Below are positions 40,479 through 62,424 of a stretch of 62,521 bases of DNA, piece after piece (the first letter of the stretch is position 1; every line of letters starts with the position of its first letter). The notes beneath the pieces are model-generated. The model ran no database searches, was not told the DNA's origin, and saw only the letters and a program-made list of their open reading frames with translations. This DNA comes from Butyrivibrio sp. (GTDB lineage Bacteria; Bacillota; Clostridia; Lachnospirales; Lachnospiraceae), in the NCBI GenBank assembly GCA_023664865.1, contig JAMPEU010000017.1:1-62521 (forward strand). Reading direction: 5' to 3'. Both the position numbers and the translations under genes were made by a program.

Positions 40479-41465
40479 ATGAGCAAATCAAAAAACAAAA
40501 GCAGCTTAACGGCAAAAACTTTTCAAAACGCCACAGGCAAAATTGACTACACGCTGACAGACAGCGGCATGTTCCAGATTGTCATGTGTTCCAACAACAA
40601 GACGCTGACAGGCCTGCTATGCGCACTGCTGCACTTAAAACCTGAAGAAGTCAAAAGCGTCACCATCCTTAACCCATTTGAATACGGCAAGGTCGCCCTT
40701 GACAAAACTTTCATTCTGGATGTCAAGATTGAGCTTAACAATGCGGCATTTATCGATATCGAACTGCAGGTCAGAAACCAGGATTACTGGTCCGACCGCT
40801 CGCTCTCATACCTATGCCGCCTGTTCGACCAGCTTGATGCAGGCGAACCCTATTCCAACGTCAAGCCTGCATACCACATAGGCATACTGGATTTTACATT
40901 GTTTCCGAAGTATCCTGAGTTCTACGCGACCAACAAGATGATGAATGTCAAAAAACATTATATTTATAATGACAAATTCACACTCAATGTGCTAGACTTA
41001 AATCAGATTGAACTGGCAACAGACGAAGACAAACAGTGGAAACTCGACTACTGGGCTCGTCTTTTCAAGGCAACAACATGGGAGGAGTTAAAAATGTTAG
41101 CACAAAAAGACCCTATTTTCCAAGAAACCGGACAGATTATCTTCCAGAAAAACCAGGACAAAAAAGCCCGTGAATGGTGCGAGTTTTTAAGGCAAGATGC
41201 TGAACGCGTCAGGCTGACGGATGAGTATCTTCTCCAAAAGAAACTTGAAGAACTTACGAAGGCAATTGAGGAAGCGAAAGCCGAACTCGCTGAAAAAGAA
41301 TCTACCATTACTGAAAAAGAATCTGTCATTGCTGAAAGAGAATCTGTCATTGCTGAAAAAGAATCTGATTTAACTGAGAAGGAATCTACTATAGAACAAC
41401 AGCAGGCTCAGATTGAACAGCTGCGTGCTGAAATCCAAAAGTTAAAGGAAGCGCAAAAACAGTAA
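40479..41465 (+). CDS. Rpn-family PD-(D/E)XK nuclease / putative transposase
   Basis: A 328-residue protein of the Rpn/YhgA-like family (recombination-promoting nuclease). The nuclease core shows FILDVKIEL and then FIDIELQVRNQDYW, giving the D...ExQ catalytic pattern, preceded by the family's NPFEYGKVALDK segment. Residues about 265-328 form a coiled coil built from seven-residue repeats. AAAGGA upstream supports the ATG at 40479. Such genes are mobile, often multi-copy; no terminal inverted repeats are visible here. It is likely horizontally acquired. Confidence 0.85.
   Translation: MSKSKNKSSLTAKTFQNATGKIDYTLTDSGMFQIVMCSNNKTLTGLLCALLHLKPEEVKSVTILNPFEYGKVALDKTFILDVKIELNNAAFIDIELQVRNQDYWSDRSLSYLCRLFDQLDAGEPYSNVKPAYHIGILDFTLFPKYPEFYATNKMMNVKKHYIYNDKFTLNVLDLNQIELATDEDKQWKLDYWARLFKATTWEELKMLAQKDPIFQETGQIIFQKNQDKKAREWCEFLRQDAERVRLTDEYLLQKKLEELTKAIEEAKAELAEKESTITEKESVIAERESVIAEKESDLTEKESTIEQQQAQIEQLRAEIQKLKEAQKQ
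41289..41393 (+). repeat. Five 21-bp repeats in the Rpn coiled coil
   Basis: Five contiguous 21-bp units with core GAAAAAGAATCT encode heptads of the type AEKESVI. The copy number can vary without frameshift, changing coiled-coil length. Confidence 0.9.
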
Positions 41466-46292: not shown

Positions 46293-47316
46293 CTATCTTC
46301 CACCTGTAAAAAAACGATATAGTTTCGGCATTTTCTTGTCACAGCATGACGATATTATTAGAACAACTGCTATTGTAATTATTGGTAAAACTATATACTC
46401 GGCATACAGTATCACATCACTTTGCTTAATAATTCTGACACATACATTTTGAAGAATTGTCAACAATTTACCATGTAAAACAAATATCATAAAGCTATGC
46501 TTAGATACCAACAGAAACATTTCTGATAATTCTTTCGTTCTCTCCGCATATTTTGCAAAACTAAAAATTGCCGGAAAGAAAAATAATATTGCTGCATAGC
46601 TAAGGGCAGATGAAAAAATGCTACTACCGTCATTGATATATACTAATGCTATGGCTGCCAATGCTGCAATAATTACGCCTTTGATTTTAATATGTACTGG
46701 TTTTGGATTAAAGCCCGTCCAAAGACCTAATGAGAAAAATGGAATAGAGCTTTTTAAAAAATAACCATTATCATATAAGAATGGTATTTTTCCTGCGATA
46801 ATACATATAAATCCTATAATCAAAATGGCAGAAGGCAAACGTTTAACACATAATACTATTAGTGGATATAGCAAAAATGAAACAAATAATTCCCTTACAA
46901 ACCATAGCGGATCATAAAGAGTCTTTTTGATAAACGGAATTCCAAATAAGTTTAATAAAAGTTCTTTTAATGTCCATTTTGTTACATCATCAAACACAAA
47001 AGGCAGAATATAATGCCCCCCATTCAAATACAAAATAGAATAAATTCCAAATCACAAAAGGGAGCAATAAAGATTTCATTTTCTTTTTTATCATTTCAAG
47101 ATAAGGACGTTCTTCCAACGAAACTGCCAAATATCCACTTACAATAAAAAATATGGGTACTCCGCATTGTGCAAGCTTGGATAAAACCGGAATTAGAACA
47201 GGCGGTTGTGCCTGCGCATATCTGAATAAATTACCTGAATGAACATATACCACCATAATACACGCACAGACTTTTAGTATGTCCAGATATTGGCTTCTTG
47301 TTTTTTGATTTATCAT
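46293..47316 (-). pseudogene. Acyltransferase-3 family protein, out of frame at a G6 tract
   Basis: Two overlapping frames make one protein. The first (to 47316) has the family start SQYLDILKVCACIMVVYVHSGN and FFIVSGYLAV; the second (from 46293) has the remaining helices and FMIFVLHG. The switch falls at six G (47016-47021). With five or eight G the frame would be continuous, giving about 341 residues. As it stands the product ends after 108 residues. The family O-acetylates surface glycans. Given four G8 runs in neighbouring genes, this may be a phase-off state and not decay. Confidence 0.8.
47016..47021 (-). repeat. G6 tract at the acyltransferase frameshift
   Basis: Six C on the plus strand, preceded on the coding strand by GAAT as is the G8 run of the MBOAT gene. 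Eight G would restore the frame. Runs of six also occur elsewhere in the window (in cobT and cobQ), so length alone is not remarkable. Confidence 0.7.
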
Positions 47317-47451
47317 ACAAATCCTCTCCTAATTTATAAATTAGTAATATTCACAATCCCTATCCAAAAACTTTTTAATTAATCAGTTAGATATCACATG
47401 ATAATTTGTTTATAACGATATTTTGTGATTTAAATTTCCTGTCACATACTA

Positions 47452-48582
47452 TCAACTCAATTTCATAACCACAGATTCATATTTTTTATAAATTTTGCAT
47501 ATTATCTCTTTCATTTTGGGTACAAGATATGTAATAAACCTTTGTATCGTGGCTTTATACAAAATGCCTAGTATAAGTGAAGCGATAAATATTGCAGCAA
47601 CAAGCAGCAGCACCCAGCATAATATATAATCATATCCGAATCTATTATAAATAAGTTCCCATAAATATGGTCTAAGATATGTTTTTATAAACAAATTGTC
47701 ATGTATAATATATATCAGCAAGGATAAACCTGATATATAATTTACACATTTATTCTTAAATGACAGATATCTTCCAATATTAAACATACCAAATGCCATA
47801 AAGAGTAAAAATGGGCTACAATTTTTATTCCAATGAAAAAGCTGTTCCTCAAACAATCCCATATGTAATCCAAGAATATTAGTGACAAAAACAATTAAAA
47901 TATTTCCACAAAATCCTACAATCATAAAAACAATATTCATCTTGACATTGTTACAAATCCCCCCCCGCACATATTTTTTTATGTATGCCATGATAAAATA
48001 TATTGCTATCCACACAATCAAATCGGAAGAATAAAAAGCTCCATGAATATAATTAAAGCCACAATATAAAATCCCTAATATTGTCGCCGCTTTCAGCAAA
48101 CTATCCTGTTTTAATGAATCTATACAATAATTCAGCATTGGATGAATGGCATAAAATATTATATAGCACACAACATACCAGTTCGTATTAAAATTAAACG
48201 GAAATAATGCTTTTATAATAAGTATAAAAGGAATATTTCCGCCTTTTATCAGCAATGCTGCTACAAGGCATATAAAAGAAATGCTCCACACCTGAAATAT
48301 CATTGTGAATAATTTCCCCATATTCACCTTTTTGCTTTCCAATAAGAACCAAGCTGAACACATAAAAAATATGCTATTGCCAAGTGCACCCGAATATCGA
48401 AATATAATTAATACAAACGTCTGAAAATCAGTGGTGGCATGCCTAAGATTCACAGCATAATTCGAGTATGGTATATATAAATTTTCATCTGCTAGTGTCT
48501 GTACAACATGACTCAAAACAATTAACAATATCGCAAACACCTTGATCAATTCAATTCCTGAATTTCTTTTAATACCTTCCAT
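47452..48582 (-). CDS. Acyltransferase-3 family membrane protein
   Basis: A 376-residue membrane acyltransferase (OafA/WecH-like) that would O-acetylate a surface glycan. The N-terminal helix starts GIELIKVFAILLIVLSHVVQ with the catalytic-type His, and the C-terminal helices carry YISGLSLLIYIIHDN. A G8 tract at 47959-47966 lies in a short loop (KKYVRGGICNN) and is in frame. GGGAG precedes the ATG. Its 3' third is duplicated as a pseudogene at 41567-41930. Confidence 0.88.
   Translation of the reverse strand: MEGIKRNSGIELIKVFAILLIVLSHVVQTLADENLYIPYSNYAVNLRHATTDFQTFVLIIFRYSGALGNSIFFMCSAWFLLESKKVNMGKLFTMIFQVWSISFICLVAALLIKGGNIPFILIIKALFPFNFNTNWYVVCYIIFYAIHPMLNYCIDSLKQDSLLKAATILGILYCGFNYIHGAFYSSDLIVWIAIYFIMAYIKKYVRGGICNNVKMNIVFMIVGFCGNILIVFVTNILGLHMGLFEEQLFHWNKNCSPFLLFMAFGMFNIGRYLSFKNKCVNYISGLSLLIYIIHDNLFIKTYLRPYLWELIYNRFGYDYILCWVLLLVAAIFIASLILGILYKATIQRFITYLVPKMKEIICKIYKKYESVVMKLS
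47959..47966 (-). repeat. G8 tract in the acyltransferase gene
   Basis: Exactly eight C on the plus strand, coding-strand context GTGC-G8-ATTT, encoding Arg-Gly-Gly. A change of one base would truncate the protein in its middle. Confidence 0.95.
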
Positions 48583-48645
48583 AATAGTAATTCTCCCTGT
48601 CTAAAAAGACTAAATATATCATAAGTATGTGTATATCCTTTATTT

Positions 48646-50154
48646 TCAGTTCTTTTCTCTCTTCATCCTTTTAATCAATAATCTTTTATAAAAAATAAAT
48701 TCCTCTGTTCTATAAAAAACACCAAGCCATACAATGAATGATAATCCCAAAGAAATGGCTACCTTACCCACAAATATATTAACCTTACTTACAATCCAAT
48801 AAGATAGTATTGCTACTATAACTGTAATTCCTAAATAACACATAAATCTCTTCCAATATTCATTAAATCTGAGCTGGAAAGAATAATGATACACAATGTA
48901 TGCGTCAAACCATATTGAAGTACTTATCTTGCTGATTGTCGTTCCTAAAAATACTCCTATTAACCCAAAATATTTGGTTAGTATAACAGATACTATCAAA
49001 TTAATTGCAGCCTCTATCCATGGTTTCCATTTATAGTGAACGAAGAGTCCATCTGCAAAAGTATAAATTTCTATTGGCTGCAACATACCACTCAGATAAC
49101 AGTTAAAAACCACAATACATACCACTATCTTATCTAAATGATATCCTACTCCAAGCCATAGTAAAATAAATGGTTCCAGCAAATTTAACAGGCAAACAGC
49201 AACAACCATATATATGCTTCCATATAAAAAGAAAATTTTTTTAAAAACCTCATACTTTTTATCTTTACTTTCTTTTGCACAAAGATTTCCTACACCTCCT
49301 GTAACTGCGTTTTTTATCATCACTGTAAAAAATAAAACCATCTGTATGACCATATCGTAATTAGAATAAATTCCAACTAAAACAGTACTAATTAACGCAG
49401 AAATAATTAAATTATCTGTAGCGCCCAAAACTGTTCCATTAAATTTTATAGAAAATGTTCCTAAAGCGTTTTTACATACTGCAAGGACTTCTTCCTTTTT
49501 CAACATTAGTACTTTTTTCCTAATAAACGGAAATAATACAATTGCTTTTTTATAAATACAGTAATTACTAATAATCATCAATACAATTTCTATAACAAGA
49601 TAAATAATATAATTACGCGTTATTAACAAGAATACGCTTTCCACAGCACTCTTTATCACTGCAAAAATAGAAAGATATCGTTTATTAATATATTCCATTT
49701 GATATATGCCTAGCAACGACGTATACTCTGCCCAAAAATAAGATATAGATGTTTTTAACAGAAAAAGAATATAGATAACTTTTATGTGTTCAACATTAGG
49801 AACATCTGTCAGTATTTTATCTAAAAACGGAATCAGGCATACTCCCGCAAGTAATATGAAGCATCCGATAAATGTATAAATAGCCTTGTACAACTTTAAG
49901 TATTGACAAATCTTTTCTTCATTTCCCTCTGCAACCGGTTTATACATATCATAAACGATTGCAGAACCAAGCCCCAGTTCTGCTAATGAAAGCATTGATA
50001 AAATATTAGAAAATACCCCATTGACTCCGAGATATTCTTTTCCTAGGCAATATACAAAAATCGTACGCATACCAAATTTCATAATAATATTAGTAATTTG
50101 ATATATGACAGTTGCAATTAAATTTTTTCCTGCATTTTCAGTTCTTGATTTCAC
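48646..50154 (-). CDS. Polysaccharide flippase, Wzx-like
   Basis: A 502-residue membrane protein of the MATE/MOP polysaccharide exporter class with about 14 helices; it starts GKNLIATVIYQITNIIMKFG and has the family's GVNGVFSNILSMLSLAELGLG segment. It should move lipid-linked repeat units across the membrane. GTG 50154 is the start, with GGGAG 7 nt before it; the gene lies 3 bp after the polymerase gene. Confidence 0.88.
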   Translation of the reverse strand: MKSRTENAGKNLIATVIYQITNIIMKFGMRTIFVYCLGKEYLGVNGVFSNILSMLSLAELGLGSAIVYDMYKPVAEGNEEKICQYLKLYKAIYTFIGCFILLAGVCLIPFLDKILTDVPNVEHIKVIYILFLLKTSISYFWAEYTSLLGIYQMEYINKRYLSIFAVIKSAVESVFLLITRNYIIYLVIEIVLMIISNYCIYKKAIVLFPFIRKKVLMLKKEEVLAVCKNALGTFSIKFNGTVLGATDNLIISALISTVLVGIYSNYDMVIQMVLFFTVMIKNAVTGGVGNLCAKESKDKKYEVFKKIFFLYGSIYMVVAVCLLNLLEPFILLWLGVGYHLDKIVVCIVVFNCYLSGMLQPIEIYTFADGLFVHYKWKPWIEAAINLIVSVILTKYFGLIGVFLGTTISKISTSIWFDAYIVYHYSFQLRFNEYWKRFMCYLGITVIVAILSYWIVSKVNIFVGKVAISLGLSFIVWLGVFYRTEEFIFYKRLLIKRMKREKN

Positions 50155-50157
50155 TTA

Positions 50158-51288
50158 TCAACTCCCACGCCCTAACAAATGATAAAAATCAATCCCATAA
50201 AATTTCATATGACTAATCATTGCATTAAAATAGAATAATGCCCTAATTCCGCATGTTACAACTAATATATTCATAAGTAAGCCTATCTTCTTTCTCGACT
50301 TATACAGTGCGTCTACGATAGGGCAAAACATCATACATATCAACATAGAATTCCTATCCAACAAAACAGGAAATGTAATTGAAACCGTTAGTGTTATGTA
50401 TGTATATAGACTTATCAAGCCCCAATCATCATTATCAATAAATTTACATTTTCTCACTTTTAAGAGGATTATAAATATCGCCAATGTCGATATTGGCAGA
50501 AATATATACCATATATTTACTTTATAATATGCTTCTTCGCCTGCATATCCATCCACTTTTCCTACCAATGTCTGAACATATAAATTTGAATACTTAGCTA
50601 ACACTTGACCAAGCCATATAATTACAGAAGGCGCTAATCCCATAATCAGCAATAGCACAATCTTTATACTCTTATTCTTTTTTTTAACCAGCTCATAAAC
50701 TCCCTGAACAGCTAATACAAATATAATAGAATAATGTATCAAGCACAAAGAAATACAAGCTAAATAATATAATGTTTTATGCCCTTCTTTATATAATTTG
50801 TAATAAGCTAAAATCCAGATGGAAAATACTAATACATTACGGATACCGGAAATTATGATAAAAATAGAGCATCCACCAAATAAAATTATAATATATATAG
50901 AAAAAGTCCTCATTGATAGCTTGTTACTTTTCATTCTATTTGATATCAAGCAATAAATAGAAGCGCCAAATATCAATACTGTCAACGCTGGCAAAAAACC
51001 TTTTTCCCCTGTTTTTCCAATGCCATACAATAATATTCTCCAAACAACCATCCCACTATGGTCTCGCCCAGCGCAAACATCATCAATTTGCTTATAGTGT
51101 TTATATAAATCATCACTCACAGACGGCTCTGCCCAAAATGCAATAATCGATAATGCCACAATAAATATTATCCATGTCACTTTAATTGTATTGTTTCTAC
51201 AACGAATAGGAAGAATTAAACCAATCGCAACTTGGCATAAAAAAATAATACATATGCCGATCGCACAATAAAACAACATCTTACTCAT
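50158..51288 (-). CDS. EpsG-type polysaccharide polymerase
   Basis: A 376-residue membrane protein with about ten helices and the EpsG-family loop SVSDDLYKHYKQID after the third helix, and ISGIRNVLVFSIWILAYY further on. Family members are Wzy-like polymerases of exopolysaccharide repeat units. AAGGTG precedes the ATG. It is next to the flippase gene, as usual. Confidence 0.82.
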   Translation of the reverse strand: MSKMLFYCAIGICIIFLCQVAIGLILPIRCRNNTIKVTWIIFIVALSIIAFWAEPSVSDDLYKHYKQIDDVCAGRDHSGMVVWRILLYGIGKTGEKGFLPALTVLIFGASIYCLISNRMKSNKLSMRTFSIYIIILFGGCSIFIIISGIRNVLVFSIWILAYYKLYKEGHKTLYYLACISLCLIHYSIIFVLAVQGVYELVKKKNKSIKIVLLLIMGLAPSVIIWLGQVLAKYSNLYVQTLVGKVDGYAGEEAYYKVNIWYIFLPISTLAIFIILLKVRKCKFIDNDDWGLISLYTYITLTVSITFPVLLDRNSMLICMMFCPIVDALYKSRKKIGLLMNILVVTCGIRALFYFNAMISHMKFYGIDFYHLLGRGS

Positions 51289-51308
51289 TTGTCACCTTAC
51301 CTTGCAAT

Positions 51309-52367
51309 TCACACCAAACTATAAATATATCTTTTCCACATATCCGCAATTTTCTGTTCACTATGAGTTTCTCTGATTTCCATTGCGTGTTTACCCATAC
51401 TTATTTTTAACTGCTCATCTTCAATCAATCTGATAATTCTATCTGCCATACTTTCTACATTTCCTCTCGGAGTAAGTAAGCCATTTACACCATCTTGAAT
51501 CAGCTCTCTAGGTCCTCCACCATAACAATCAGTTGCAACCACGGGAAATCCCATTGCCATAGTCTCCATAAGAGCATTTGGCATGCCTTCATAGTCTGAG
51601 GAAATCACATAGATATCTGAATCAGTAATTTTATTATGCACATCAAGCTGAAAGCCTTCAAACACTACGTTTTTTTCTATTTGTAGTTGACTGCATAATT
51701 TTTTCAACTTTTCTTCTTCTACGCCAACACCAAATATCCTTAATATATATTCTGAATGTTTTTGGCAGACGATGCTAAATGAATTTAATAAAAGCGAATA
51801 ATTTTTCTCTGGCATCAGCCTTCCAATTGCAACGATTTCTTTATTTCTTTTATCAGTTTTATAGGGCAGATTATTCATAACCGGATTATGAATCACTATG
51901 CCTTTTTTCTGTATTTTCCTTGAATAATATTTCCTTTCCTCATTTGTTTGAAAAACATAACCATCAGCTCTCCAATATAAGGCCTTTCTTAACAGTTTTG
52001 ATTTATATGATAAATTATCATATTTAGGTGCACTTCTCTCACTTACAACAACACGTGTCTTTCCACCAAGTAATCTCACAAAAGATACAAGTAAATTTGC
52101 ATATATACCCATTCCTATTATTACATCTATTTTATGTTTTTTTGATATCTTTAACAAAGTGACTGCATCGGTAACTATCGTTTTATTTCCCTTTAATACA
52201 CATAGTCTCTTTACTTTCTTAGGTACTGTATATTCTTTCTCCTTTTCATCACCTGTAATAAGATATACGCAATCTTTATCTTCAGTGCTAAATGCGCCAG
52301 CAATCACTACTGTTTGCCGCTCAGAACCCCCTCCTGCCAATCCTTCTGAAACAAATGCAATTCTCAT
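51309..52367 (-). CDS. Glycosyltransferase family 4
   Basis: A 352-residue GT-B fold enzyme. N-terminal FVSEGLAGGGSERQT is the acceptor-side glycine motif; the C-terminal half has IVAIGRLMPEKNYSLLLNSF and the E-x7-E donor site ISSDYEGMPNALMETMAMG. It transfers a sugar from a nucleotide donor onto a lipid-linked intermediate at the cytosolic face. GGAGAG precedes the ATG. Confidence 0.9.
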   Translation of the reverse strand: MRIAFVSEGLAGGGSERQTVVIAGAFSTEDKDCVYLITGDEKEKEYTVPKKVKRLCVLKGNKTIVTDAVTLLKISKKHKIDVIIGMGIYANLLVSFVRLLGGKTRVVVSERSAPKYDNLSYKSKLLRKALYWRADGYVFQTNEERKYYSRKIQKKGIVIHNPVMNNLPYKTDKRNKEIVAIGRLMPEKNYSLLLNSFSIVCQKHSEYILRIFGVGVEEEKLKKLCSQLQIEKNVVFEGFQLDVHNKITDSDIYVISSDYEGMPNALMETMAMGFPVVATDCYGGGPRELIQDGVNGLLTPRGNVESMADRIIRLIEDEQLKISMGKHAMEIRETHSEQKIADMWKRYIYSLV

Positions 52368-52425
52368 GTCTTATTTTCTCTCCAATATTTTTATTTATCC
52401 AAAAGTTTCTACTATCAAAACCAAC

Positions 52426-53817
52426 CTAAAATCCCCCATAAATAAACACTGTATCTCCTTGATAGAAAAAAGCTATCGTTATTAAAATCACTGTCCATAA
52501 TATAAACCACGATGAGAACTTATTATAATCAAGCATAACATATACAGCTTCACCTTGTTTTTTCCACAACATATAAATACATATAGCAGCAATCAATATA
52601 GCAAATATAATTGTATACACATAGATATAATGAACACCATCTGCCATAACAAACATTCTGTGTATTATTATCAATGCGTTTTCCATGCTATCCGCCCTAA
52701 ATAACACCCATCCCAGATTAACAAACATAAACGTCAATATAATTGAAATACCTCTGCTTAATCTCTTGCCAGCAGTTGTTTTTATATGCCATCCTTTCTG
52801 CTTCACCCAAACCGTAAATAATTTATGGCTCACAGAACCAATTCCATGATATAGTCCCCACAACACGAAAGTCCAACCGGTACCATGCCAGATACCACTC
52901 AATAGCATTACTATCAATATATTACAGCATGTCTTATGTACACCTTTCCTGTTACCTCCCAGCGGAATATACACGTACTCTTTAAACCAGCTTGACAAGC
53001 TAATGTGCCATCTTCTCCAAAACTCTGTTGGATTCTGTGCAATATATGGCAAATTAAAATTTCTTCCTAAGTCATACCCTAGTGCTCGCGCAATCCCTAC
53101 TGCCATATCCGAATAACCTGAAAAATCACAATATATCTGAATAGAATATGCCACTGTTGTTAAAAGTATCGATAAGCCACTATAGGCAACGGGAGCTGCA
53201 TACACTGCGTCTACTGCGCGCCCCAGGCGATCTGCTATAACACCCTTTTTAACAATACCCATTAAAAAAATCTGCACACCGGCTACAATATTCTGCATTT
53301 TAACGGGATGCTGCTGCTCCAGTTGTTTTAAAAAGTCATGTGCTTTTACAATTGGACCTGACGTAATTTGCGGAAAAAATCCTATGTATAAAGCGACTTT
53401 TTTAAACGATTTCTCTATCTGGATTTTTTCCTGATAGGCATCTATAATATAACTCACTGCCTGAAAGGTATAAAATGACAACCCCATTGGCAAAGCAAGC
53501 GAAAGAGTTCCCCCCCCATTCTCAATTAATAAAATACTATACTTATATATTGCCAATACACCAAATTCAAACAGTATACCAAAAAACAGAATCAATTTTT
53601 TAATATCTTGTTTATTATTTGAAAACAACCTTGCTGAACTGTATGCGGTAATTGTTTGAAACAACAATATCGGCAAAAAGCGAATATCGGCATATGCATA
53701 AAAAATATAGCTTGCAACAAGCAAAATATTCTGCCTCATGGTTTCTTTTTTGGACAACCTGAGTATAGTAAAAAGCATTATGGCAAAAACAACAAACGCC
53801 ACAGACAATATGTTCAT
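52426..53817 (-). CDS. MBOAT O-acyltransferase (AlgI/DltB type)
   Basis: A 463-residue polytopic membrane acyltransferase. The signature EFWRRWHISLSSWFKEYVYI and the catalytic His in LSGIWHGTGWTFVLWG are present. It would pass an acyl group across the membrane to a glycan, together with the SGNH protein encoded immediately upstream (stop and start codons are adjacent). A G8 tract at 53510-53517 lies in frame near residue 100 (IENGGGTLS). Confidence 0.93.
   Translation of the reverse strand: MNILSVAFVVFAIMLFTILRLSKKETMRQNILLVASYIFYAYADIRFLPILLFQTITAYSSARLFSNNKQDIKKLILFFGILFEFGVLAIYKYSILLIENGGGTLSLALPMGLSFYTFQAVSYIIDAYQEKIQIEKSFKKVALYIGFFPQITSGPIVKAHDFLKQLEQQHPVKMQNIVAGVQIFLMGIVKKGVIADRLGRAVDAVYAAPVAYSGLSILLTTVAYSIQIYCDFSGYSDMAVGIARALGYDLGRNFNLPYIAQNPTEFWRRWHISLSSWFKEYVYIPLGGNRKGVHKTCCNILIVMLLSGIWHGTGWTFVLWGLYHGIGSVSHKLFTVWVKQKGWHIKTTAGKRLSRGISIILTFMFVNLGWVLFRADSMENALIIIHRMFVMADGVHYIYVYTIIFAILIAAICIYMLWKKQGEAVYVMLDYNKFSSWFILWTVILITIAFFYQGDTVFIYGGF
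53510..53517 (-). repeat. G8 tract in the MBOAT gene
   Basis: Exactly eight C on the plus strand, coding context GAAT-G8-AACT, encoding Gly-Gly-Gly. A one-base change would stop the protein within its first quarter. Confidence 0.95.
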
Positions 53818-54861
53818 CTAAAACTGTACCTCCTGCATCTCCATCAAAATATGGTACAGCTCGTGCGCAATAATTGCATGTCCGTCTTCATTTAAATGTC
53901 CCTGTCCCATTTCTGTATTTGCAAAGCCATATGGAACTATATAGCTTGATTCATATGCTGCCTCAAAGGTTTCTCCCATATCAGCAAAAATAATACCGTT
54001 TTGCTCACAGGCATCTTTAAATATATCATACGTTTCTTCATCTCTTACAATCAGCATTTCACTACCATTTAATTCAACTTCGGGGTGATAGAATATAATA
54101 ATTGGATTTTCATATTCTTCACGGATTAAAGTAAATACTTGATTTAGCAATTCATTATAATAACTCGCATCAACAATGAGTTCTGTCTGCTCTTCATGTG
54201 ATATCTGTAATCCGAACGGCTCACCTTCTACCAGCTTTATATTTCTTAATTGATCGCTTACAATATGCCTTGCAAGTGGCAACATTTGTCTAAAACATAC
54301 TTTCATTTTTTGCTTTGCTGTAAGATAGTGAACTAAATTGTTTCCATTAGAAGATGGATCATATATGGTTTGATTCAAACCATCCTGTAAATCATCCATG
54401 GAAAAAGAAGTTGAATTAACCTCTATGATTACCGCATTTGCACCTTGAAACTCGCTAATTCCAGCTTGAAATCCTTTTACAACTTTTGGGAAATAATTCC
54501 CAGAACATCCGATACTATAAGCTCTCAATCTGTCATTTGTTCCTCCTAAGAGTTTATTTAAGATGTAAGTCATATTTTTTTCCTGTGCAAGATAAATTCC
54601 CTCCACATGCGATGAACCCATTAACAAAACATATGATTTCTCTAATTCCCCATTGATGTTGTTATAACCGTTTTTATCAAAACGGATAATGCTATAACCT
54701 TCTGTTCCATGTACATTATACGTATTTGGGATGTTTATCCCTTCTGTTGCCCCATGCTGTCTGCTCACGAAACCACATCCAGAGCCATATGCCATATATA
54801 ATAAATTACATATTAAAAAACTACATAAAAAAGCCAACAATGCTTTATGCCACTTTTTCAT
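53818..54861 (-). CDS. SGNH/AlgJ-like partner of the MBOAT acyltransferase
   Basis: A 347-residue protein with one N-terminal membrane helix (signal anchor) and an extracytoplasmic SGNH hydrolase-like domain: VLLMGSSHVEGIYLA holds the nucleophile Ser, YSIGCSGNYFP the Gly/Asn blocks, and GQGHLNEDGHAIIAHEL the Asp/His pair. With MBOAT proteins such enzymes complete O-acylation of the glycan. It overlaps the DUF1919 gene by 4 bp. Confidence 0.85.
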   Translation of the reverse strand: MKKWHKALLAFLCSFLICNLLYMAYGSGCGFVSRQHGATEGINIPNTYNVHGTEGYSIIRFDKNGYNNINGELEKSYVLLMGSSHVEGIYLAQEKNMTYILNKLLGGTNDRLRAYSIGCSGNYFPKVVKGFQAGISEFQGANAVIIEVNSTSFSMDDLQDGLNQTIYDPSSNGNNLVHYLTAKQKMKVCFRQMLPLARHIVSDQLRNIKLVEGEPFGLQISHEEQTELIVDASYYNELLNQVFTLIREEYENPIIIFYHPEVELNGSEMLIVRDEETYDIFKDACEQNGIIFADMGETFEAAYESSYIVPYGFANTEMGQGHLNEDGHAIIAHELYHILMEMQEVQF

Positions 54862-55502
54862 TTATATATCCTCTCTAGAAATTCTATCCAATCAAATTGA
54901 TCATATCTCCTATGCAGCAGAGAAACATATTGGGGAATTATATCAACAAAATCTTTGTCTTCAGAACCTTTAATATAAAATGCTGTTTTCAATTCTGGGT
55001 GATATTTATGTGTAAACAGTACGCCATTACGCCCCCCCCGCACAACAAAATCATCAAATTCTTTCATGTCATTTATTGTACAGTAGTTCCTATCATTCAT
55101 AATATAAAAGCAGTTATCCCAATTCATGCGCTGCTTTCTCTCATTCCATTTTTCCTGTGCATTTTCAACTGAGAGATAATGCACCAAATGCAGCTTAATA
55201 TCTTTTAACAATGCTACCGGATAACCTTCTTTTTGACTTTCTTCTTTTAATTCAGCCATTGGTTCATCCAAATAGTCGTGTATATTTTTAATAAATTTAA
55301 TATAATCTCGCGCATCAAAATACATATTAATAGTTGGCGAACAGAACTTTTGCTTTAAATCATGATAAATCATTCCGCCAGTGCAATCGCTCGAAATTAG
55401 TGTAAAATTTTGATTTGTAAGTTTACGGCGGTTACATCTGTTAATTGTGATATCTCTTACACTATCTCTTATTTGCTTTAATTTCTCTCTCATAAATTTC
55501 AT
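54858..55502 (-). CDS. DUF1919 family protein of polysaccharide loci
   Basis: A 214-residue protein with the DUF1919 pattern: LISSDCTGGMIYHDLKQKF, then SPTINMYFDARDYIKFIKN and the C-terminal FTHKYH. The family is found in exopolysaccharide clusters and its biochemical role is not known. ATG 55502 has GGAG 5 nt upstream and overlaps the preceding stop (ATGA). A G8 tract (55032-55039) codes Arg-Gly-Gly-Arg before FTHKYH. Confidence 0.85.
   Translation of the reverse strand: MKFMREKLKQIRDSVRDITINRCNRRKLTNQNFTLISSDCTGGMIYHDLKQKFCSPTINMYFDARDYIKFIKNIHDYLDEPMAELKEESQKEGYPVALLKDIKLHLVHYLSVENAQEKWNERKQRMNWDNCFYIMNDRNYCTINDMKEFDDFVVRGGRNGVLFTHKYHPELKTAFYIKGSEDKDFVDIIPQYVSLLHRRYDQFDWIEFLERIYK
55032..55039 (-). 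repeat. G8 tract in the DUF1919 gene
   Basis: Exactly eight C on the plus strand, coding context GTGC-G8-CGTA. The preceding bases match those of the G8 run in the acyltransferase gene at 47959. Confidence 0.95.
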
Positions 55503-56647
55503 TTTTTCTCCGTATTCAAACAATCATATAAAATACCTTCCAGTTTTTTCACTTGCTTTTCTTCTCTACAATTTTGAGTTGCAAAGTCTCTGCCCATTTC
55601 CGCATAAGATACACAGACATCTTCATTGTGCATCTTATTTAAAGCCACACACATTGCTTTTCTATTACGTCCAACGATACCACCCGGCAAATATCTATTT
55701 ATACCAACATCAGTAGATACAAAAGCACATCCTGCCGCCATTCCTTCTATAAGTGATACAGGAAACATCTCTGTAATACTGGTAAGCATATATATTTTTG
55801 ATCTTTTGATATATTCAATAGTATCTTCTCTGTTTTGTTCATATAAAATTTGCACTTTTCTCACACCATATTTTTTATCTAATTCATACTTTTTCTTAAT
55901 TATTTTTTCATAATATTTATTCTTTCGAGGTCCAATTAGCATCAATTCATAATCCTCTACATTTGACTGATAAAATAGTTCCATACAATATACTTGATTT
56001 TTTCTCTTACAAAATGTTCCAACATTGATTATTCTATTTTCTTTGGGTAAACTTCTCTGAAAAAATCTATCGTCAACTGCGTTATATAAAATATGGCAGT
56101 CTGTGATGCCATGCTTTTTAAAAAATCTGTTTGCATAATCTTCCTCATGAAGTTGTGCAATGGCATCATACTTTTTTATATTTTTCCATTGAAAAGGAAA
56201 AAAACACCGCCAACGTATATCGCCCCAAATTTTTCTAATCAAACCATATAGCGAGAAGTCATTATACTGATTCCATGACATATCTGATATTCCATGAATC
56301 ATCAAAAATTTTTTGCATGGAATCTTATCCAAAACAGGTAACAACCAGTCCACATTCCAGCTTTCCAGACAGACATTAATCATAATATCCATGTCTTTTG
56401 ATAGGTCGAATACCATATCCATGTACTGTTTTTTATTTCCAAAATGTAGCATAAACTCGTTATAGGCTTTCAGTCGGATAATTTTTATATTATTATGTAC
56501 TTCTGATTTTTTTACTTCTTTTCGTTCACCAGTCACCACTGTTACATTATGTCCCAATTTAACCAGTCCTTCTGCCTGATACTGTGTTACTATGGAAACG
56601 CCATCAGCATTTGGATAATAAGATAATGATGTAATTAATATATTCAT
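55499..56647 (-). CDS. Glycosyltransferase family 4
   Basis: A 382-residue GT-B enzyme: ITSLSYYPNADGVSIVTQ at the N-terminus, RIINVGTFCKRKNQVYCMEL in the donor domain and TSITEMFPVSLIEGMAAG as the nucleotide-sugar E-x7-E site. ATG 56647 has GGAGG 5 nt upstream; the longer frame adds eleven untypical residues. It precedes the DUF1919 gene with a 4-bp overlap. Confidence 0.88.
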   Translation of the reverse strand: MNILITSLSYYPNADGVSIVTQYQAEGLVKLGHNVTVVTGERKEVKKSEVHNNIKIIRLKAYNEFMLHFGNKKQYMDMVFDLSKDMDIMINVCLESWNVDWLLPVLDKIPCKKFLMIHGISDMSWNQYNDFSLYGLIRKIWGDIRWRCFFPFQWKNIKKYDAIAQLHEEDYANRFFKKHGITDCHILYNAVDDRFFQRSLPKENRIINVGTFCKRKNQVYCMELFYQSNVEDYELMLIGPRKNKYYEKIIKKKYELDKKYGVRKVQILYEQNREDTIEYIKRSKIYMLTSITEMFPVSLIEGMAAGCAFVSTDVGINRYLPGGIVGRNRKAMCVALNKMHNEDVCVSYAEMGRDFATQNCREEKQVKKLEGILYDCLNTEKK

Positions 56648-56717
56648 TTGCACCTCCTTACTTCTTCCATGTTTTATCAATATTCACAATTTCGAGTAAG
56701 AGCTAACTTTATTCGCC

Positions 56718-57647
56718 TTAAAATGTTCCTATTAATATCTTAAATTTAGTTTCCCAATCACAAACTTTAATTCCACAAGTCATTTCTGAATTTTTTAGTA
56801 AATTAACTCGATTTTTTATTGTCTTTTTATAATTAACAACACTTTCTAAATATGGAATCAGTTCTGAATGTAAATATGGTATATTGTACTCCATTAACAT
56901 TTGAGCCATATGCAAGCATATATTTTTATAAAAAAATATACCGTAAATTTCACCTTTTATTCTCTTTAATAAACCATTTTTTCCACATGTTACACTATCT
57001 TTATATCTTATATGTTTTATGTAACTGTTTTGATCCATATAAACGGTTCCACATGAAAACGCAAGTGCTGCAACCAAAAAATCATGAGAGGGCATTTGGT
57101 TATTTTCATAATTAACTCTAGCAAGCTCTATAGTTAAGCGTAATACTTCTAATGAAAAAACAAATGTACATCCTGCTAGTCTTCCTCTGGTGAATAAAGC
57201 TTCAAGTTTATTCGGCATATTACTAATATTATTAAATCCTATCGAATTTAAATCTTGATTTACAAGTTTTACACTAGATGTATACAGCTTAATTGGATCA
57301 TTGATATTTTCAAGTGCAGTAATTGCGTTATACAATTTTTCTTCTTCCCATATATCATCTTGGTCAGCAAAACAGTAATAATCGCATTTTCCAATCAACG
57401 ACGTTAATTTAAGGAAACTTTTTTTATATCCTATATTTTCTTCAATAATATAATTAATTTTTCCTTTGTATTCCTCGCATAATTTATTTATAACTGAACA
57501 TGTATTATCACAAGAACCATCATCCCTAATAAAAATTTGTATATTGACATCTTTTTGTTTAAAGATGGAGTCCACTTGCCTCTTTAATGTTGATTCACCA
57601 TTGTATGTAGATAATAAAACTCCAACTGTCTTTAACTGCTTTACCAT
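56718..57647 (-). CDS. Glycosyltransferase family 2
   Basis: A 309-residue GT-A enzyme with TVGVLLSTYNGESTLKRQVD, IFIRDDGSCDNT and CFADQDDIWEEEKL, which together give the nucleotide and metal (DxD) sites; DQDDIW is typical of rhamnosyl- and related transferases. GGGAG lies upstream of the ATG. Confidence 0.9.
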   Translation of the reverse strand: MVKQLKTVGVLLSTYNGESTLKRQVDSIFKQKDVNIQIFIRDDGSCDNTCSVINKLCEEYKGKINYIIEENIGYKKSFLKLTSLIGKCDYYCFADQDDIWEEEKLYNAITALENINDPIKLYTSSVKLVNQDLNSIGFNNISNMPNKLEALFTRGRLAGCTFVFSLEVLRLTIELARVNYENNQMPSHDFLVAALAFSCGTVYMDQNSYIKHIRYKDSVTCGKNGLLKRIKGEIYGIFFYKNICLHMAQMLMEYNIPYLHSELIPYLESVVNYKKTIKNRVNLLKNSEMTCGIKVCDWETKFKILIGTF

Positions 57648-57692
57648 TAATGCAATCTCCCTAGCAAAGTATTAGCAAAAAAGATTTTCATG

Positions 57693-59153
57693 TTATATAT
57701 CCTTCTCAATATGCCCTTTCCATCCCGTCGCAGGCACAAATTTTAACGACTCATCATATCGAAGCTGTAATGCGCATTTTGAGTCAAGTCTTTTATCATT
57801 TGAAACAAAATAAATGTCTGTATTCCCATCAAAAAATTTATATTTTGATTTTGTCTGACTGCACTGGCGCAAAGTAGGAATTTTAGAAACATCAAATCCC
57901 ATCAGGGAAGCAATTGCTTTGTCAAAATATACCGGGTTACTGCCCGCTGCTATCATCCCTACCTGTTTTGGACTCGGTGCAACCGGACCATCTTTCTCCC
58001 CCGAAATAATCATGTCTGCAATAATAAAATACCTTCTTTGTTTTGTCTCCTGTAATTTTCCATTTTTATCTGCATATAAAATAATCTTATTCAAATCAAC
58101 AATTGTTTTACTAATCGTTTCATTTCCATACCATGAGCCGTTTTCGTATTTAACACCGCCTATTTTAAGCAAAGTAGTACAAACCGCGATGCCGAACCAG
58201 ATTAGTCTTGCCTTGAATAAATATCCTTTATCCTCCAATATGTATTTTTTATCATACAGCCTACTTCTAATCGACTGTATTATATTCCTGTCTTTATATT
58301 CGTCTCCGCCTTCTTCTTTTGAACCATAACTGTGATGCGGCAAAAAATCTTTTTGTGCATTTATGCCAACAAGATTTTTTAAGGCTATTGTTACGCCCGC
58401 TTTTTTATGAGTTTTGGGTTTGGGCATATTAATAATTACATCAGCGTCCAGCACATATTGAGAAACACAATATTCATGTATATTATCATGATGATGTGTA
58501 ATTAAGTTATCTGATGGATACATAACAATCCTCAGCTTATTTGTCGCTGCCTGATCTATGCCATAAAATTCACTTTCTGTTCCTAAATTAATGACTTGTG
58601 ATGGAATATTATCTTTTAAACTGCGAGTAGATAATCTCCTTTTTACCACAGTTACCTGTTTTCTGAAATCCTGCAACTTAATTTTAAGTCCTTTTTCTTT
58701 ATAGTAGGTAATCAATCTATCATATCCGGATTCTTTTATCAGTCTTTCAAAATCACATTCCTGCATAGGTGCATCACCGATAATCACACTTCCGGTTCCA
58801 TTCAATGCCTTAAAAACATAATCTAGCACTGGTGCTACAACGGATGGGTGCGTGTATAAGCACTTTTCTCCACCCTTTATATTCGTATTTTGATCCAACA
58901 CTAAATTAGGTTTAATTAAAACATGATCGCCTTCATGAATAAGAGAAGCAAATGGATTCCATTCTTTTGTTCCAATATGCTCTTGATCCATTTTTAATAA
59001 AATCAAAGCATTTCTTACAGCATCATAAACATGATTTTCTACATCAGAAATTTCATTAAATATGTATTCAGGATAACGCTCACCTGGACGAAAAAACTTA
59101 TCATTAGGATATTCATAATTGTCTGTCTTTGATATACTAATATAATTATTCAT
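57693..59153 (-). CDS. DUF362 domain protein
   Basis: A 486-residue cytosolic protein. The DUF362 core is seen as GDHVLIKPNLVLDQN, VIIGDAPMQECDFERLI and ADVIINMPKPKTHKKAGVT, followed by ALKNLVGI. No 4Fe-4S CxxC clusters are visible, although family members sometimes have them. The role in a polysaccharide locus is unknown. The start is uncertain (ATG 59153 or 59165); both overlap the upstream gene. Confidence 0.8.
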   Translation of the reverse strand: MNNYISISKTDNYEYPNDKFFRPGERYPEYIFNEISDVENHVYDAVRNALILLKMDQEHIGTKEWNPFASLIHEGDHVLIKPNLVLDQNTNIKGGEKCLYTHPSVVAPVLDYVFKALNGTGSVIIGDAPMQECDFERLIKESGYDRLITYYKEKGLKIKLQDFRKQVTVVKRRLSTRSLKDNIPSQVINLGTESEFYGIDQAATNKLRIVMYPSDNLITHHHDNIHEYCVSQYVLDADVIINMPKPKTHKKAGVTIALKNLVGINAQKDFLPHHSYGSKEEGGDEYKDRNIIQSIRSRLYDKKYILEDKGYLFKARLIWFGIAVCTTLLKIGGVKYENGSWYGNETISKTIVDLNKIILYADKNGKLQETKQRRYFIIADMIISGEKDGPVAPSPKQVGMIAAGSNPVYFDKAIASLMGFDVSKIPTLRQCSQTKSKYKFFDGNTDIYFVSNDKRLDSKCALQLRYDESLKFVPATGWKGHIEKDI

Positions 59154-60303
59154 TTTTCTTACCATATCTCCCTATTCTATGAACCATATATTCTGTATCG
59201 TCCCCAAACACCCCACACCCATGAGTGTTTTCAAATAGCCAGATGCCCGGACATGACAGATTTCCTTCAATAATTACAACCTGATTTTTATCATTAATAC
59301 AAAAGTCCCAATTAGCAAAACCAATATCCGGTAAACAAGCATGGAGTTTCTTAGCATAATCCATTGCCTTATAAACCATTGGGACACGATATCCCTCGAA
59401 CTTAATATTTGTATCAGGATGAATTTCATATGTATTCATATCACAATCATGCGCATATTCTGATAAAATACCGCTTTCGTCCAGCGCAATATACATCCCG
59501 CCTGCATGTGCATTATCTAAGTGTGATTTTCCACGCCCTATCCGCATGATAGGCGGCGCTGCTTTAATAGTATCCTCTACTCTGTATGTCATAATCCTGA
59601 GTGTGTTGCATGATTCTGGATGCAATGCTGTATAGTGTGCTTCCTGCTTTACCTTTTCCTGTATGATGAAATCTGTTTTATACTGATTGAAGATATCATT
59701 GATATCCCTTCCCGTAATACAGTCTTGTCCATTCTGCAAAATAATCAAATCAACGCCATGTCCGGAGCTTTCGCCAACTGTCGGCTTTATAATACATTCT
59801 GTTTTTTGGTTTATGGCTGCTAATTGTCGGACTAATCTGTCTCTGCTAATAGGATTTCTGTCCCCATCATAGAAGCATCCCCCCCCGCAGCCTCCGTAAC
59901 ACTTTGGCACTGTCAAATCTTCGTACTGTGCTAATACTTTTGCATATAAAAATTCAATATAAGCCTTATTGCATAAAATCCTTGCTATCCTGTCAGGATT
60001 TGTCTGTGTTTCAAGTTTAGTGGTGTATAGATATTCAGGAAAATACCGCACATCCAGTTTTCCGCTGTATGCGTAATATTTTTTATGCCAGTAAAGCGGT
60101 ATCTTCTTTCCGTAATGCTCTTTCCAGTAATCCTGTATTTGTTCTATTTCGTCATGACTAAAATGAACGTTTCTTATTCTCTTGCCTTCTTTACCGAACA
60201 GAACACCTTTCCATTCCATTATCCATTGTTTTTTAATACGAATATTTTGACTTTTATTTTCTATTTTATATATGTAATCTCTGTATATTTGTTTGAGCGA
60301 CAT
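59146..60303 (-). CDS. ATP-grasp protein, sugar-transfer-associated type
   Basis: A 385-residue ATP-grasp enzyme of the kind linked with glycan synthesis. ATP-binding segments are CIIKPTVGESSGHGVDLI, DFIIQEKVKQ and the metal-ligand region NWDFCINDKNQVVIIEGNLS. It may attach an amino acid or other acid to a sugar; this is family-level inference. The G8 tract at 59879-59886 lies in the Gly-rich loop CGGGCFYDGD. GGAG precedes the ATG. Confidence 0.85.
   Translation of the reverse strand: MSLKQIYRDYIYKIENKSQNIRIKKQWIMEWKGVLFGKEGKRIRNVHFSHDEIEQIQDYWKEHYGKKIPLYWHKKYYAYSGKLDVRYFPEYLYTTKLETQTNPDRIARILCNKAYIEFLYAKVLAQYEDLTVPKCYGGCGGGCFYDGDRNPISRDRLVRQLAAINQKTECIIKPTVGESSGHGVDLIILQNGQDCITGRDINDIFNQYKTDFIIQEKVKQEAHYTALHPESCNTLRIMTYRVEDTIKAAPPIMRIGRGKSHLDNAHAGGMYIALDESGILSEYAHDCDMNTYEIHPDTNIKFEGYRVPMVYKAMDYAKKLHACLPDIGFANWDFCINDKNQVVIIEGNLSCPGIWLFENTHGCGVFGDDTEYMVHRIGRYGKKNE
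59879..59886 (-). repeat. G8 tract in the ATP-grasp gene
   Basis: Exactly eight C on the plus strand, coding context CTGC-G8-ATGC, encoding Gly-Gly-Gly. A one-base change would remove the ATP-binding domain. Confidence 0.95.
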
Positions 60304-60407: not shown

Positions 60408-61322
60408 TCACTTATACAATCCTTGTATATCAAATTTCTCCCCAAAAATATAATCAAACTCGTCCGGTTCAAATGTCATATACCCGCTTCCGTCAAAAAA
60501 CGTTATTTCCCCAAAGCGAATCTGATTTCCTTCATTATAAAAATCAATCCTGACTTCCGGAAAAGGTTTCGCTAAGATTTCCGCTGCTTGTTTCAGTTCA
60601 TCATAATTTTTCGGTTTATTGATTTTCCTGGTCAGAGGTTTTTCATCTGCCCTAATAACATTCAATCTATTATAGTCTGCATCAAAGATTCCAAAACCAG
60701 CCTTATCCCCAACTTTCCTGTCTGCAATAACATATAAATATTCTGCTTTCCCATTAAAACAAAAAAATTTATAATCAATCAGTCCTCCTGTTTCCGGATT
60801 CGATGGAATTAACTCTTCTATGATAATTCTGTGCTTCTTTCCATCGTAAACCCATTCCCGCCCCGGATGTTTCTCATGTACCGGTTCATTAACCCACTCT
60901 GCCATCTGTCTGCGGACTGCCGCCTCATCAATCTTCGACTTATCTTCCACCAGTATCACGGCATTCCCACCGCCGCCTAATGTGTCCTTTATGACAAACG
61001 ATTTCGGAAGTTTATTAAAGTCTATTTTCTTCGGACTGTCATATACCCCGTACAGTTTATTTAAGATACTGCCTAATCCGCATTGTTCCACATATTTCCG
61101 CACTTCATATTTATCCGCACACTGCGCCATAAGTTCATTGCGGTAATAGAGCTTGTACCATTGCAGCTTTTCCGTGAAACGCTCCGGATTTTTCAGATTA
61201 AGCCTATGTCCGGTTTTTAATTTATATTGCATTTTCACCATAATAGAATCCGGTACAAAACTAAGCGCCTGCATAATCCGAACCCGCGTTTTCCGGCTCT
61301 TTATGAGCTTTTTGTAATCCAT
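60408..61322 (-). CDS. TupA-like ATP-grasp protein
   Basis: A 304-residue member of the TupA-like ATP-grasp family found in polysaccharide and teichuronopeptide clusters: LNLKNPERFTEKLQWYKLYY, CADKYEVRKYVEQCG, FVIKDTLGGGGNAVIL and the IDYKFFCFNGKAEYLYV segment. Expected to form an amide or ester bond using ATP; substrate unknown. GGAGGAG lies 7 nt before the ATG, inside the previous gene, which it overlaps by 62 bp. Confidence 0.87.
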   Translation of the reverse strand: MDYKKLIKSRKTRVRIMQALSFVPDSIMVKMQYKLKTGHRLNLKNPERFTEKLQWYKLYYRNELMAQCADKYEVRKYVEQCGLGSILNKLYGVYDSPKKIDFNKLPKSFVIKDTLGGGGNAVILVEDKSKIDEAAVRRQMAEWVNEPVHEKHPGREWVYDGKKHRIIIEELIPSNPETGGLIDYKFFCFNGKAEYLYVIADRKVGDKAGFGIFDADYNRLNVIRADEKPLTRKINKPKNYDELKQAAEILAKPFPEVRIDFYNEGNQIRFGEITFFDGSGYMTFEPDEFDYIFGEKFDIQGLYK

Positions 61323-62424
61323 TTACAATCTCCTCCATATACGCCTCAACCACAAGTTCTCTGTCAAACTCTCTCTCCATTTTCCTGCGTCCGGCTAATC
61401 CCATTTCTCGTCGTTCTTCGTTATTCATCTGTAGGAATTTCCTCACGCAGGCAACTAGCTGTTCCCTGTTTCTCTGCCCACACACAAAACCTGTCACGCC
61501 ATCTTCAACCGTGTCCTTGCACCCGCTCCTGTCCGTAGTAATAACCGGACGCCCGCATGCGGCGCTCTCCAAGCAGACATTGGATATCCCTTCCGGATAG
61601 TATGACGGGTGGATAGTGCAGTGTGCCCGCTTTATGTATGGTCTTGTATCCTCAACCATGCCGTGATATTTGATAATTCCGTCTTTTTCATATGACGCAA
61701 GCATTGATTCATACTCTCCGTCGCATGGTCCCAGCACATGAAAAACCGTATTGCTATATTCTGCCTTAATCTTCCTTGCCGTTTCGAGGTATTCTTCGAT
61801 TCCTTTTTCCTTTATCACCCTTGCGATAAATAAAAATTCCACACCATCTGAATCGTCCGGATAATCCATCAGATGCCAACGTATTAAATTTACGCCGGAG
61901 CCCGGAATTAGTCTGCTCTTACCCTGGTACATGTGGTATTTATTGAAAAAGTTTTGATTCTCTATATTCTGGAAGAATAAGCAGTCCGCATGTTTTGCCG
62001 CCATTTTATACAGCATAATCATGAACCGCTGCATAACGCCTTTATTTTCAACGGCGGTTCCCAAACCTGAAATATTCATCAAATAAGGCAGTTTCATTTT
62101 TCCCGCGAGAATCCCGGCATATATATCCACTTTTGTTGTATACATTAAAATCATGTCCGGATTGATTTTCTTGAATATTTTGTAATAGGAACGGATTAGC
62201 GGGATATCTTTGAACGGATTTTTACCCCTTTTGTCTATTTCCACAGGAATAAACTTACAGCCGATTGCTGTCATCTTGTCTACTTTCTCACCATACGGTA
62301 GGCAGATATACACCTCATACCCTTCGGAAACCAGCCGCTCCACCAGCTCAAAGCGGAAATTATACAAAACGAAGTCACGGTTGACCAGCACTAATATTTT
62401 TTTCATTCTTTCCCCGGCACTCAT
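61261..62424 (-). CDS. Glycosyltransferase family 4 (WbpY/Wbu-like)
   Basis: A 387-residue GT-B enzyme. The N-terminus VLVNRDFVLYNFRFELVE and GLGTAVENKG are typical of capsule N-acetyl-sugar transferases; the donor domain has FLFIARVIKEKGIEEYLETA and HPSYYPEGISNVCLESAACG. ATG 62424 overlaps the upstream stop (TGATG) and has GGAG 8 nt upstream; an ATG at 62406 is an alternative. Confidence 0.9.
   Translation of the reverse strand: MSAGERMKKILVLVNRDFVLYNFRFELVERLVSEGYEVYICLPYGEKVDKMTAIGCKFIPVEIDKRGKNPFKDIPLIRSYYKIFKKINPDMILMYTTKVDIYAGILAGKMKLPYLMNISGLGTAVENKGVMQRFMIMLYKMAAKHADCLFFQNIENQNFFNKYHMYQGKSRLIPGSGVNLIRWHLMDYPDDSDGVEFLFIARVIKEKGIEEYLETARKIKAEYSNTVFHVLGPCDGEYESMLASYEKDGIIKYHGMVEDTRPYIKRAHCTIHPSYYPEGISNVCLESAACGRPVITTDRSGCKDTVEDGVTGFVCGQRNREQLVACVRKFLQMNNEERREMGLAGRRKMEREFDRELVVEAYMEEIVNGLQKAHKEPENAGSDYAGA

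Follow-up and report, generated by a model that had tools for sequence, protein, structure and literature searches.

In Campylobacter jejuni, tracts with a length of at least 8 are known to switch (PMC6321876), and the gene cj1139 is ON at G8 and OFF at G7 (PMC8437040). The poly-G genes of the Campylobacter capsule and lipooligosaccharide loci are also the closest described counterparts of the elements reported here, four runs of exactly eight G (G8) inside genes of a polysaccharide locus on contig C88 of the draft genome G000. This contig, 62,521 bases long and analyzed over its entire length, is referred to as the window. As in the Campylobacter loci, G runs of 7 to 8 or more lie in surface-glycan genes, a one-base change leads to truncation, and many loci are present per genome. 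Tract length and host are different: in the draft genome set of the PhasomeIt survey, 52% of the Campylobacter tracts are G9 and 30% are G10, with a median of 20 tracts per C. jejuni genome (PMC6321876), whereas 54 of the 60 tracts of G000 are G8 and the host is a Clostridia-like bacterium with MutS1.

Three further systems allow comparison. The G-tract switch of the sortase-dependent pili of Bifidobacterium breve (PMC9187656) likewise belongs to a Gram-positive gut bacterium and is intragenic, with two frames that are joined only at certain lengths; per genome, it is described for one or two pilus clusters, whose tracts are G10 to G12, in contrast to the approximately 60 tracts, mostly G8 and in many gene types, found here. 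The multi-locus phasomes of Neisseria (PMC5953494, PMC5084427) are similar in being large sets of repeat-driven switches of surface genes, but they come from another phylum and comprise other gene sets. Invertible promoters of gut bacteria (cited in PMC11868660) also turn surface features on and off at random, but do so by a different mechanism, i.e., recombinase-driven inversion; for both of these comparisons, our analysis covered G tracts alone. In a literature search confined to open-licence papers, no report of poly-G phase variation in Clostridia was found. The mechanism is known, and the host group and the scale look new. The gene content of G000, such as the presence of the SpoIVA gene, suggests that the host is a Clostridia-like spore-former.

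The four G8 runs of the window are very probably contingency (phase-variable) tracts and one node of a repertoire of about 60 tracts. Phase variation had already been proposed for them in a first-pass annotation of the window, and this proposal is supported by a genome-wide peak at G8, by a bias toward glycan and surface genes that is absent from G6 controls, by frame breaks at tracts in other genes, and by a conserved lipoprotein site at which tract length goes with the ON or OFF state.

Four in-frame G8 tracts in one polysaccharide locus

Exactly four G or C runs of at least seven bases are present in the window. All of them are C8 on the plus strand, corresponding to G8 on the coding minus strand, and each is located within a single open frame that reads through the tract:

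47959-47966, minus strand: G8 tract in an acyltransferase gene (47452-48582; Pfam, Acyl_transf_3)
53510-53517, minus strand: G8 tract in an MBOAT O-acyltransferase gene (52426-53817; Pfam)
55032-55039, minus strand: G8 tract in a DUF1919 gene (54858-55523; Pfam)
59879-59886, minus strand: G8 tract in a sugar-transfer ATP-grasp gene (59146-60303; Pfam, ATPgrasp_ST)

The next-longest G or C runs are three of six bases, at 32080, 33724, and 47016. Beyond the tract, the two shifted frames reach a stop after at most 6 and at most 1 codons in the acyltransferase gene, after at most 17 and at most 35 codons in the MBOAT gene, after at most 13 and 0 codons in the DUF1919 gene, and after at most 14 and at most 3 codons in the ATP-grasp gene. 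The run count and the open frames agree with the first-pass annotation, which had listed four in-frame G8 tracts and no other G or C run of seven or more, and the stops within 0 to 35 codons bear out its statement that slippage by one base would truncate all four products. The four tracts lie within 11.9 kb, compared to 0.19 tracts expected at the genome's own tract density (Poisson P = 4e-5, calculated post hoc). The bases TGC directly precede three of the four tracts, as had been noted before; as a shared element, however, TGC did not hold up, since it precedes only 10 of the 60 tracts genome-wide (counted by eye).

A second peak at G8 in the genome

The source genome is a 3.82-Mb draft of 180 contigs (96.6% complete, 5.1% contamination). 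On both strands together, it contains 167 exact G6, 15 exact G7, 54 exact G8, and 6 exact G9 runs and none that are longer; its runs of at least 8 make up 60 tracts, derived from 66 overlapping matches. The 54 G8 runs compare to 1.35 expected from the decay between G6 and G7, 7.4 expected from the G frequency of 0.21, and 3.6 expected from the G8/G7 ratio (20/84) of G028, a genome of the same order and another family. G8 forms a second peak in G000, with a trough at G7, and it is this shape rather than the density that sets the genome apart; in G028, unlike G000, the counts fall smoothly from G7 upward. With 60 tracts of at least 8 in the genome, the earlier notion of a local set of four had to be given up, and the estimate of four switches and 16 surface variants is too low for a repertoire of about 60 tracts. 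The tracts are clustered by contig (10 on C147, 7 on C169, 4 on C88, and 3 each on C112, C119, and C11). The base in front of the tract is C in 36 of 60 cases, T in 21, and A in only 3.

Homopolymer lengths can be wrong in short-read drafts, and the contig number and contamination level of G000 might likewise point to an artefact of assembly or sequencing. We consider the probability of this explanation negligible, as 42 of the 60 tracts reside on contigs of at least 25 kb (counted by hand), and have rejected an assembly artefact on the grounds that the assembly of a second species has tracts at the same sites and that other assemblies of the genus include G runs of 10 to 16.

Reading frames break at some tracts

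For 55 of the 60 tracts, the G strand carries the longest of the frames that span the tract. Each tract was assigned to one of four classes, i.e., read through (THROUGH), at a frame break (SPLIT), near a gene start (NEARSTART), or fitting none of these (OTHER). According to these classes, for which we set the length thresholds ourselves and in which natural gene borders can land in SPLIT, 35 tracts are read through, 13 are at a frame break, 6 are near a gene start, and the remaining 6 belong to none of these. In 34 of the 35 read-through genes, a stop is reached within 50 codons in each of the two shifted frames. The break fraction, defined as the number of breaks divided by the sum of breaks and read-throughs, is 13/48 for the tracts, compared to 0.04 to 0.09 for G5, G6, runs of at least seven A or T (A7+ and T7+), and random positions of the same loci. 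Read-through was observed for none of the 6 G9 tracts of G000 versus 35 of the 54 G8 tracts, and with three genomes pooled, for 2 of 12 G9 tracts versus 80 of 118 G8 tracts.

Five broken genes of G000 were confirmed as encoding one protein each, based on Pfam matches of the pieces, homologues, orthologues, or a motif:

L037:4475: acyltransferase broken at G9; the pieces match profile positions 3-105 and 120-324, and three homologues have both parts in one frame
L065:17109: pyruvyl transferase broken at the tract; the pieces match profile positions 1-88 and 115-277
L048:5499: sulfatase-like protein broken at the tract; homologues have one continuous frame
L054: lipoprotein broken at G9; orthologues are open
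L060:5372: epimerase whose N-terminal glycine motif switches frame at G9; classed as near a gene start

The first four entries are the confirmed single genes among the 13 frame-break sites. At the sites L051:3979 and L057:3532, two related genes may simply lie side by side, and an NCBIfam scan of the split pieces confirmed no further split pair (9 of 10 pieces matchless, one weak match). In L051 (3117-4423), a TupA-like gene has a G8 tract near its end and is directly followed by a second TupA gene, N-terminally short and in another frame; this pair may represent either a fusion switch or a partial duplication.

Tract genes are biased toward glycan modification and the cell surface

A Pfam match above the cut-off was obtained for the gene or gene piece at 36 of the 60 tracts. 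In a functional sorting that was our own and not blind, 25 of these 36 genes are glycan-modifying, compared to 0 of 15 control genes with G6 runs (Fisher P = 3e-6); if five generic S-adenosylmethionine (SAM) methyltransferases are left out, the number is 20 of 36. The glycan-modifying set comprises acyltransferases, MBOAT proteins, ATP-grasp proteins of the TupA and ST types, glycosyltransferases, FkbM and other methyltransferases, pyruvyl transferase, epimerase, sulfatase, an Antibiotic_NAT-family acetyltransferase, and DUF1919. The other 11 genes encode four solute-binding proteins, three ABC-type transport proteins, CstA, a BspA-type leucine-rich repeat (LRR) protein, a CotH protein, and a kinase with LRR. 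Among the tract genes without a Pfam match, several have lipobox signals (L041, L046, and L049) or many membrane helices. The control consisted of 20 of the 167 G6 places, i.e., every fifth of 100 listed, for which 18 frames were scanned and 15 had a Pfam match; examples are the genes for DNA polymerase I, RNase J, SpoIVA, asparagine synthase, and a response regulator. One control gene, encoding a flavin oxidase on contig C112, is located near polysaccharide genes, and another one encodes a CotH protein, a type that also occurs with a tract. The idea that tracts are present only in decoration genes, true in the window, fails genome-wide, where a group 1 glycosyltransferase and a GtrII protein have tracts as well.

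The tract site differs among relatives within G000. It is found at codons 118, 184, and 288 in TupA relatives, at two unaligned sites in ATPgrasp_ST relatives, and at two sites in acyltransferases, while for MBOAT proteins it is positioned in one shared loop of two 81% identical copies, one of which is the window copy, and at codon 368 in a third. These different sites suggest that tracts arose independently in members of the same family. Three methyltransferases have the tract within the same glycine-rich motif, which we take to be motif I; this could reflect a shared origin or constraint.

Tract length and frame state in sister species

Exact G8 runs were counted in 24 genomes of the same genus. 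G020 has 34 exact G8 and 11 exact G7 runs, and G006 has 30 and 12, respectively. Between G000 and G020, 15 tract pairs with 77 to 96% identity were compared, and the tracts align in 14 of them (12 distinct G020 tracts). Conservation of G8 across relatives, which the first-pass annotation had regarded as evidence against switching, was found for part of the pairs: six are G8 and read through in both genomes, as a fixed tract would be, whereas one is G9 and split versus G8 and open, and one (L043 versus L152) has G8 on both sides, with an open frame in G000 and a split frame in G020. A further pair (L035) is interrupted by a contig end.

The gene of the SBP_bac_8 lipoprotein (L054) is G9 and split in G000 and G8 and open in G020 and G006. 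Among its 27 closest copies in the genus (at least 62% identity), a tract of exactly G8 follows the lipobox in seven, at the position where G000 has G9, and the remaining 19 have no run of five within the first 330 bases. The G8 orthologues are open in all seven species. A length difference that tracks the ON or OFF state between related genomes is present for this one lipoprotein gene.

Some of these data could also be accommodated by a fixed G8 that is stable under mismatch repair and kept for its glycine and arginine codons, the broken genes then being the result of ordinary decay. The six unchanged pairs, the seven open lipoprotein orthologues, the full-length MutS1 of G000, and the three methyltransferases in which the tract encodes a glycine-rich motif are in line with such a scenario, which we nevertheless judge improbable: glycine has four codons, so that eight unbroken Gs are not demanded; 19 of the 27 close lipoprotein orthologues do without a G run of five at the same gene end; G7 is rarer than G8; none of the six G9 tracts is read through; and the tract genes are sharply unlike the G6 genes. 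Slippage at the RNA level, by which RNA polymerase or the ribosome would generate a mixture of in-frame and shifted products from one DNA length, is very unlikely. A narrow DNA length of 8 and G8 tract positions kept between species would fit it, but the difference between G9/split and G8/open lies in the DNA, three length classes occur within one genome, and for the few tracts between promoter-like boxes described below, the frame is irrelevant.

Proposed switching and contrary observations

The phase-variable mechanism that we infer, from slippage as the source, with its rate and reversibility, to the switching of the four window genes and its surface effect, would be as follows. Replication slippage would add or remove one G in a tract; at another tract length, the ribosome would be off frame and encounter an early stop, and the enzyme would be lost; reverse slippage would restore it. 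The tracts of the window are situated in enzymes that probably decorate the polysaccharide (the acyltransferase, MBOAT, DUF1919, and ATP-grasp proteins), i.e., in four modification-type genes, whereas the four glycosyltransferase genes and the flippase-like and polymerase-like genes have none. Because these latter genes are without a tract, switching would alter the decoration while the polymer is kept, and a change in decoration is most likely what a switch in the window would bring about. The locus would be one node of a repertoire of some 60 poly-G tracts, located in genes for glycan enzymes, surface lipoproteins, and transporters and in a few other genes, which most likely results in random on/off switching of single surface features in individual cells.

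Several observations weigh against this interpretation, in addition to the nonblind functional sorting and the six pairs that are identical in length and frame state. The break fraction is lower in G020 (4/29) and G006 (3/25) than in G000, and some controls are not exceeded there (1/5 for G6 in G020; 0.15 for T7+ in G006). Exact runs are also numerous in G028, with 84 G7, 20 G8, and 16 runs of at least 9 in 1.9 Mb, and 80 polysaccharide-type loci of other genomes, totaling 643 kb, contain 24 G6, 2 G7, and 5 runs of 8 to 13. No length alleles were found for the window genes, of which only the ATP-grasp gene was sought in 77 genomes of the genus and the other three were not sought there; its matches were the gene itself, a 36% paralogue in G000, and distant relatives with 28 and 30% in G005 and G009. 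A scan of named genomes with the MBOAT protein gave 80 loci with 35 to 43% identity and no alleles, and records nearest to G000 may be excluded from that set; patterns spanning two window tracts and a scan of viral contigs with the ATP-grasp protein gave no match. Finally, because MutS1 is intact, slippage rates may be low or moderate.

C. jejuni is not known to have classical mismatch repair. In G000, MutS1 is full length, and it was above the cut-off in 14 of the 15 genomes searched, G000 among them; loss of MutS as the cause of the tracts was ruled out by the full-length protein. A moderate slippage rate owing to intact MutS1 may be the reason why tracts stay at 8 to 9.

Candidate promoter-spacer tracts

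Neisseria has repeat tracts in promoters as well. In G000, two tracts (L040 and L047) show the arrangement TTGACT, 4 bases, G8, 6 bases, and a -10-like box, with a spacing of 18 and scores of 10 and 9 out of 12. The promoter-like layout is similar in G020 (L164) and G006 (L199), and a score of 11 is reached by L207, L224, and L226 of other species. Among the 78 tracts that are unclassified or not read through, 8 score at least 10, versus 34 of 3760 shifted positions. With the threshold at 9, all tracts taken together show a weak excess (12 of 130 versus 638 of 10312). A score of 10 was also obtained for one read-through coding tract. These results are no more than suggestive of a few tracts lying between -35- and -10-like boxes, with two in G000 that look like promoter-spacer tracts.

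Poly-G tracts across the genus

Runs of at least 8 were counted in 77 genomes of the genus and number 0 to 95 each with a median of 20, totals that are uncorrected for base composition and by themselves no proof of function; at least 20 are present in 39 genomes, at least 40 in 15, and at most 5 in 11. Runs of at least 9, taken as the sum of forward and control-reverse counts, number 6 in G000, 2 in G020, 87 in G005, 71 in G013, 33 in G019, and 38 in G022; a direct count gave the same totals for the latter four genomes, and the 6 of G000 agree with its number of G9 runs. The exact G7 runs number 10 in G005, 0 in G013, 1 in G019, and 20 in G022. As the runs of at least 9 and the G7 counts differ among G000 and G020 on the one hand and these four genomes on the other, the set-point of tract length appears to differ by lineage, being 8 in G000 and G020 and 9 and longer in G005, G013, and G019. 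Contig C1 of G005 additionally contains a repeat array (L209, L213, L217, and L221) with one G9 tract per unit, near-identical flanks, and a spacing of 526 bases.

Neutral mutation bias, i.e., functionless growth of G runs in weakly constrained accessory genes, would agree with the G-run richness of G028 from another family, with the accessory nature of many tract genes, and with the range of 0 to 95 tracts among genus members, which a drifting bias could give. A smooth bias should, however, fill G7, yet G7 is rarer than G8; 35 of the 60 genes remain open, and tract sites persist between species. We therefore rate this explanation as highly improbable in comparison with phase variation.

It appears reasonably probable that poly-G phasomes, comprising up to 95 tracts, operate throughout the Clostridia-like genus (77 species) and combine frame switches and promoter-spacer switches that act on glycan decoration, nutrient-binding lipoproteins, and transporters, with MutS kept and with lineage-specific length set-points. 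If this is true and the hosts are gut bacteria that do no harm, multi-locus phase variation would extend beyond pathogens. Section 8 of a 2025 review (PMC11868660) asks, as a major open question, why only pathogens seem to have genomes rich in phase-variable loci, and whether this is mere database bias. A genus with 0 to 95 poly-G tracts of at least 8 per species would be a natural comparison set for this question and would permit tests of which genes gain tracts, of how tract length is determined where MutS is present, and of selection by phages, antibodies, or diet. OFF genes in such genomes could be mistaken for pseudogenes, and if other gut Clostridia are alike, gene-content methods would miss some of the surface diversity among strains in metagenomes.

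Other genes of the window locus

Besides the four tract genes, the locus contains a second acyltransferase gene, which is split, and genes without a tract:

46293-47316, minus strand: split acyltransferase gene with two overlapping frames (46990-47316 and 46293-47033)
47016-47021, minus strand: G6 run in the overlap of these two frames
48646-50154, minus strand: flippase-like membrane protein (MatE, 22.9 bits, slightly below the cut-off of 24.9)
50158-51288, minus strand: EpsG-type polymerase-like protein
51309-52367, minus strand: glycosyltransferase (group 1)
53818-54861, minus strand: protein without Pfam match, adjoining the MBOAT gene
55499-56680, minus strand: glycosyltransferase (group 1)
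56718-57647, minus strand: glycosyltransferase family 2
57693-59165, minus strand: DUF362 protein
60408-61322, minus strand: TupA-like ATP-grasp protein
61261-62424, minus strand: glycosyltransferase (group 1)

The pieces of the split acyltransferase match positions 2-99 and 93-324 of the Acyl_transf_3 profile, and the gene with its G6 run is possibly in an OFF state or the product of plain decay. As a guess, the protein encoded at 53818-54861 could be a partner of the MBOAT protein. Upstream of the locus, a gene for a PD-(D/E)XK nuclease family transposase (PDDEXK_2) is located at 40479-41465. Outside the genus, polysaccharide-type loci of Candidatus Gastranaerophilales (L076, L096, and L136) contain G13, G10, and G8 runs.

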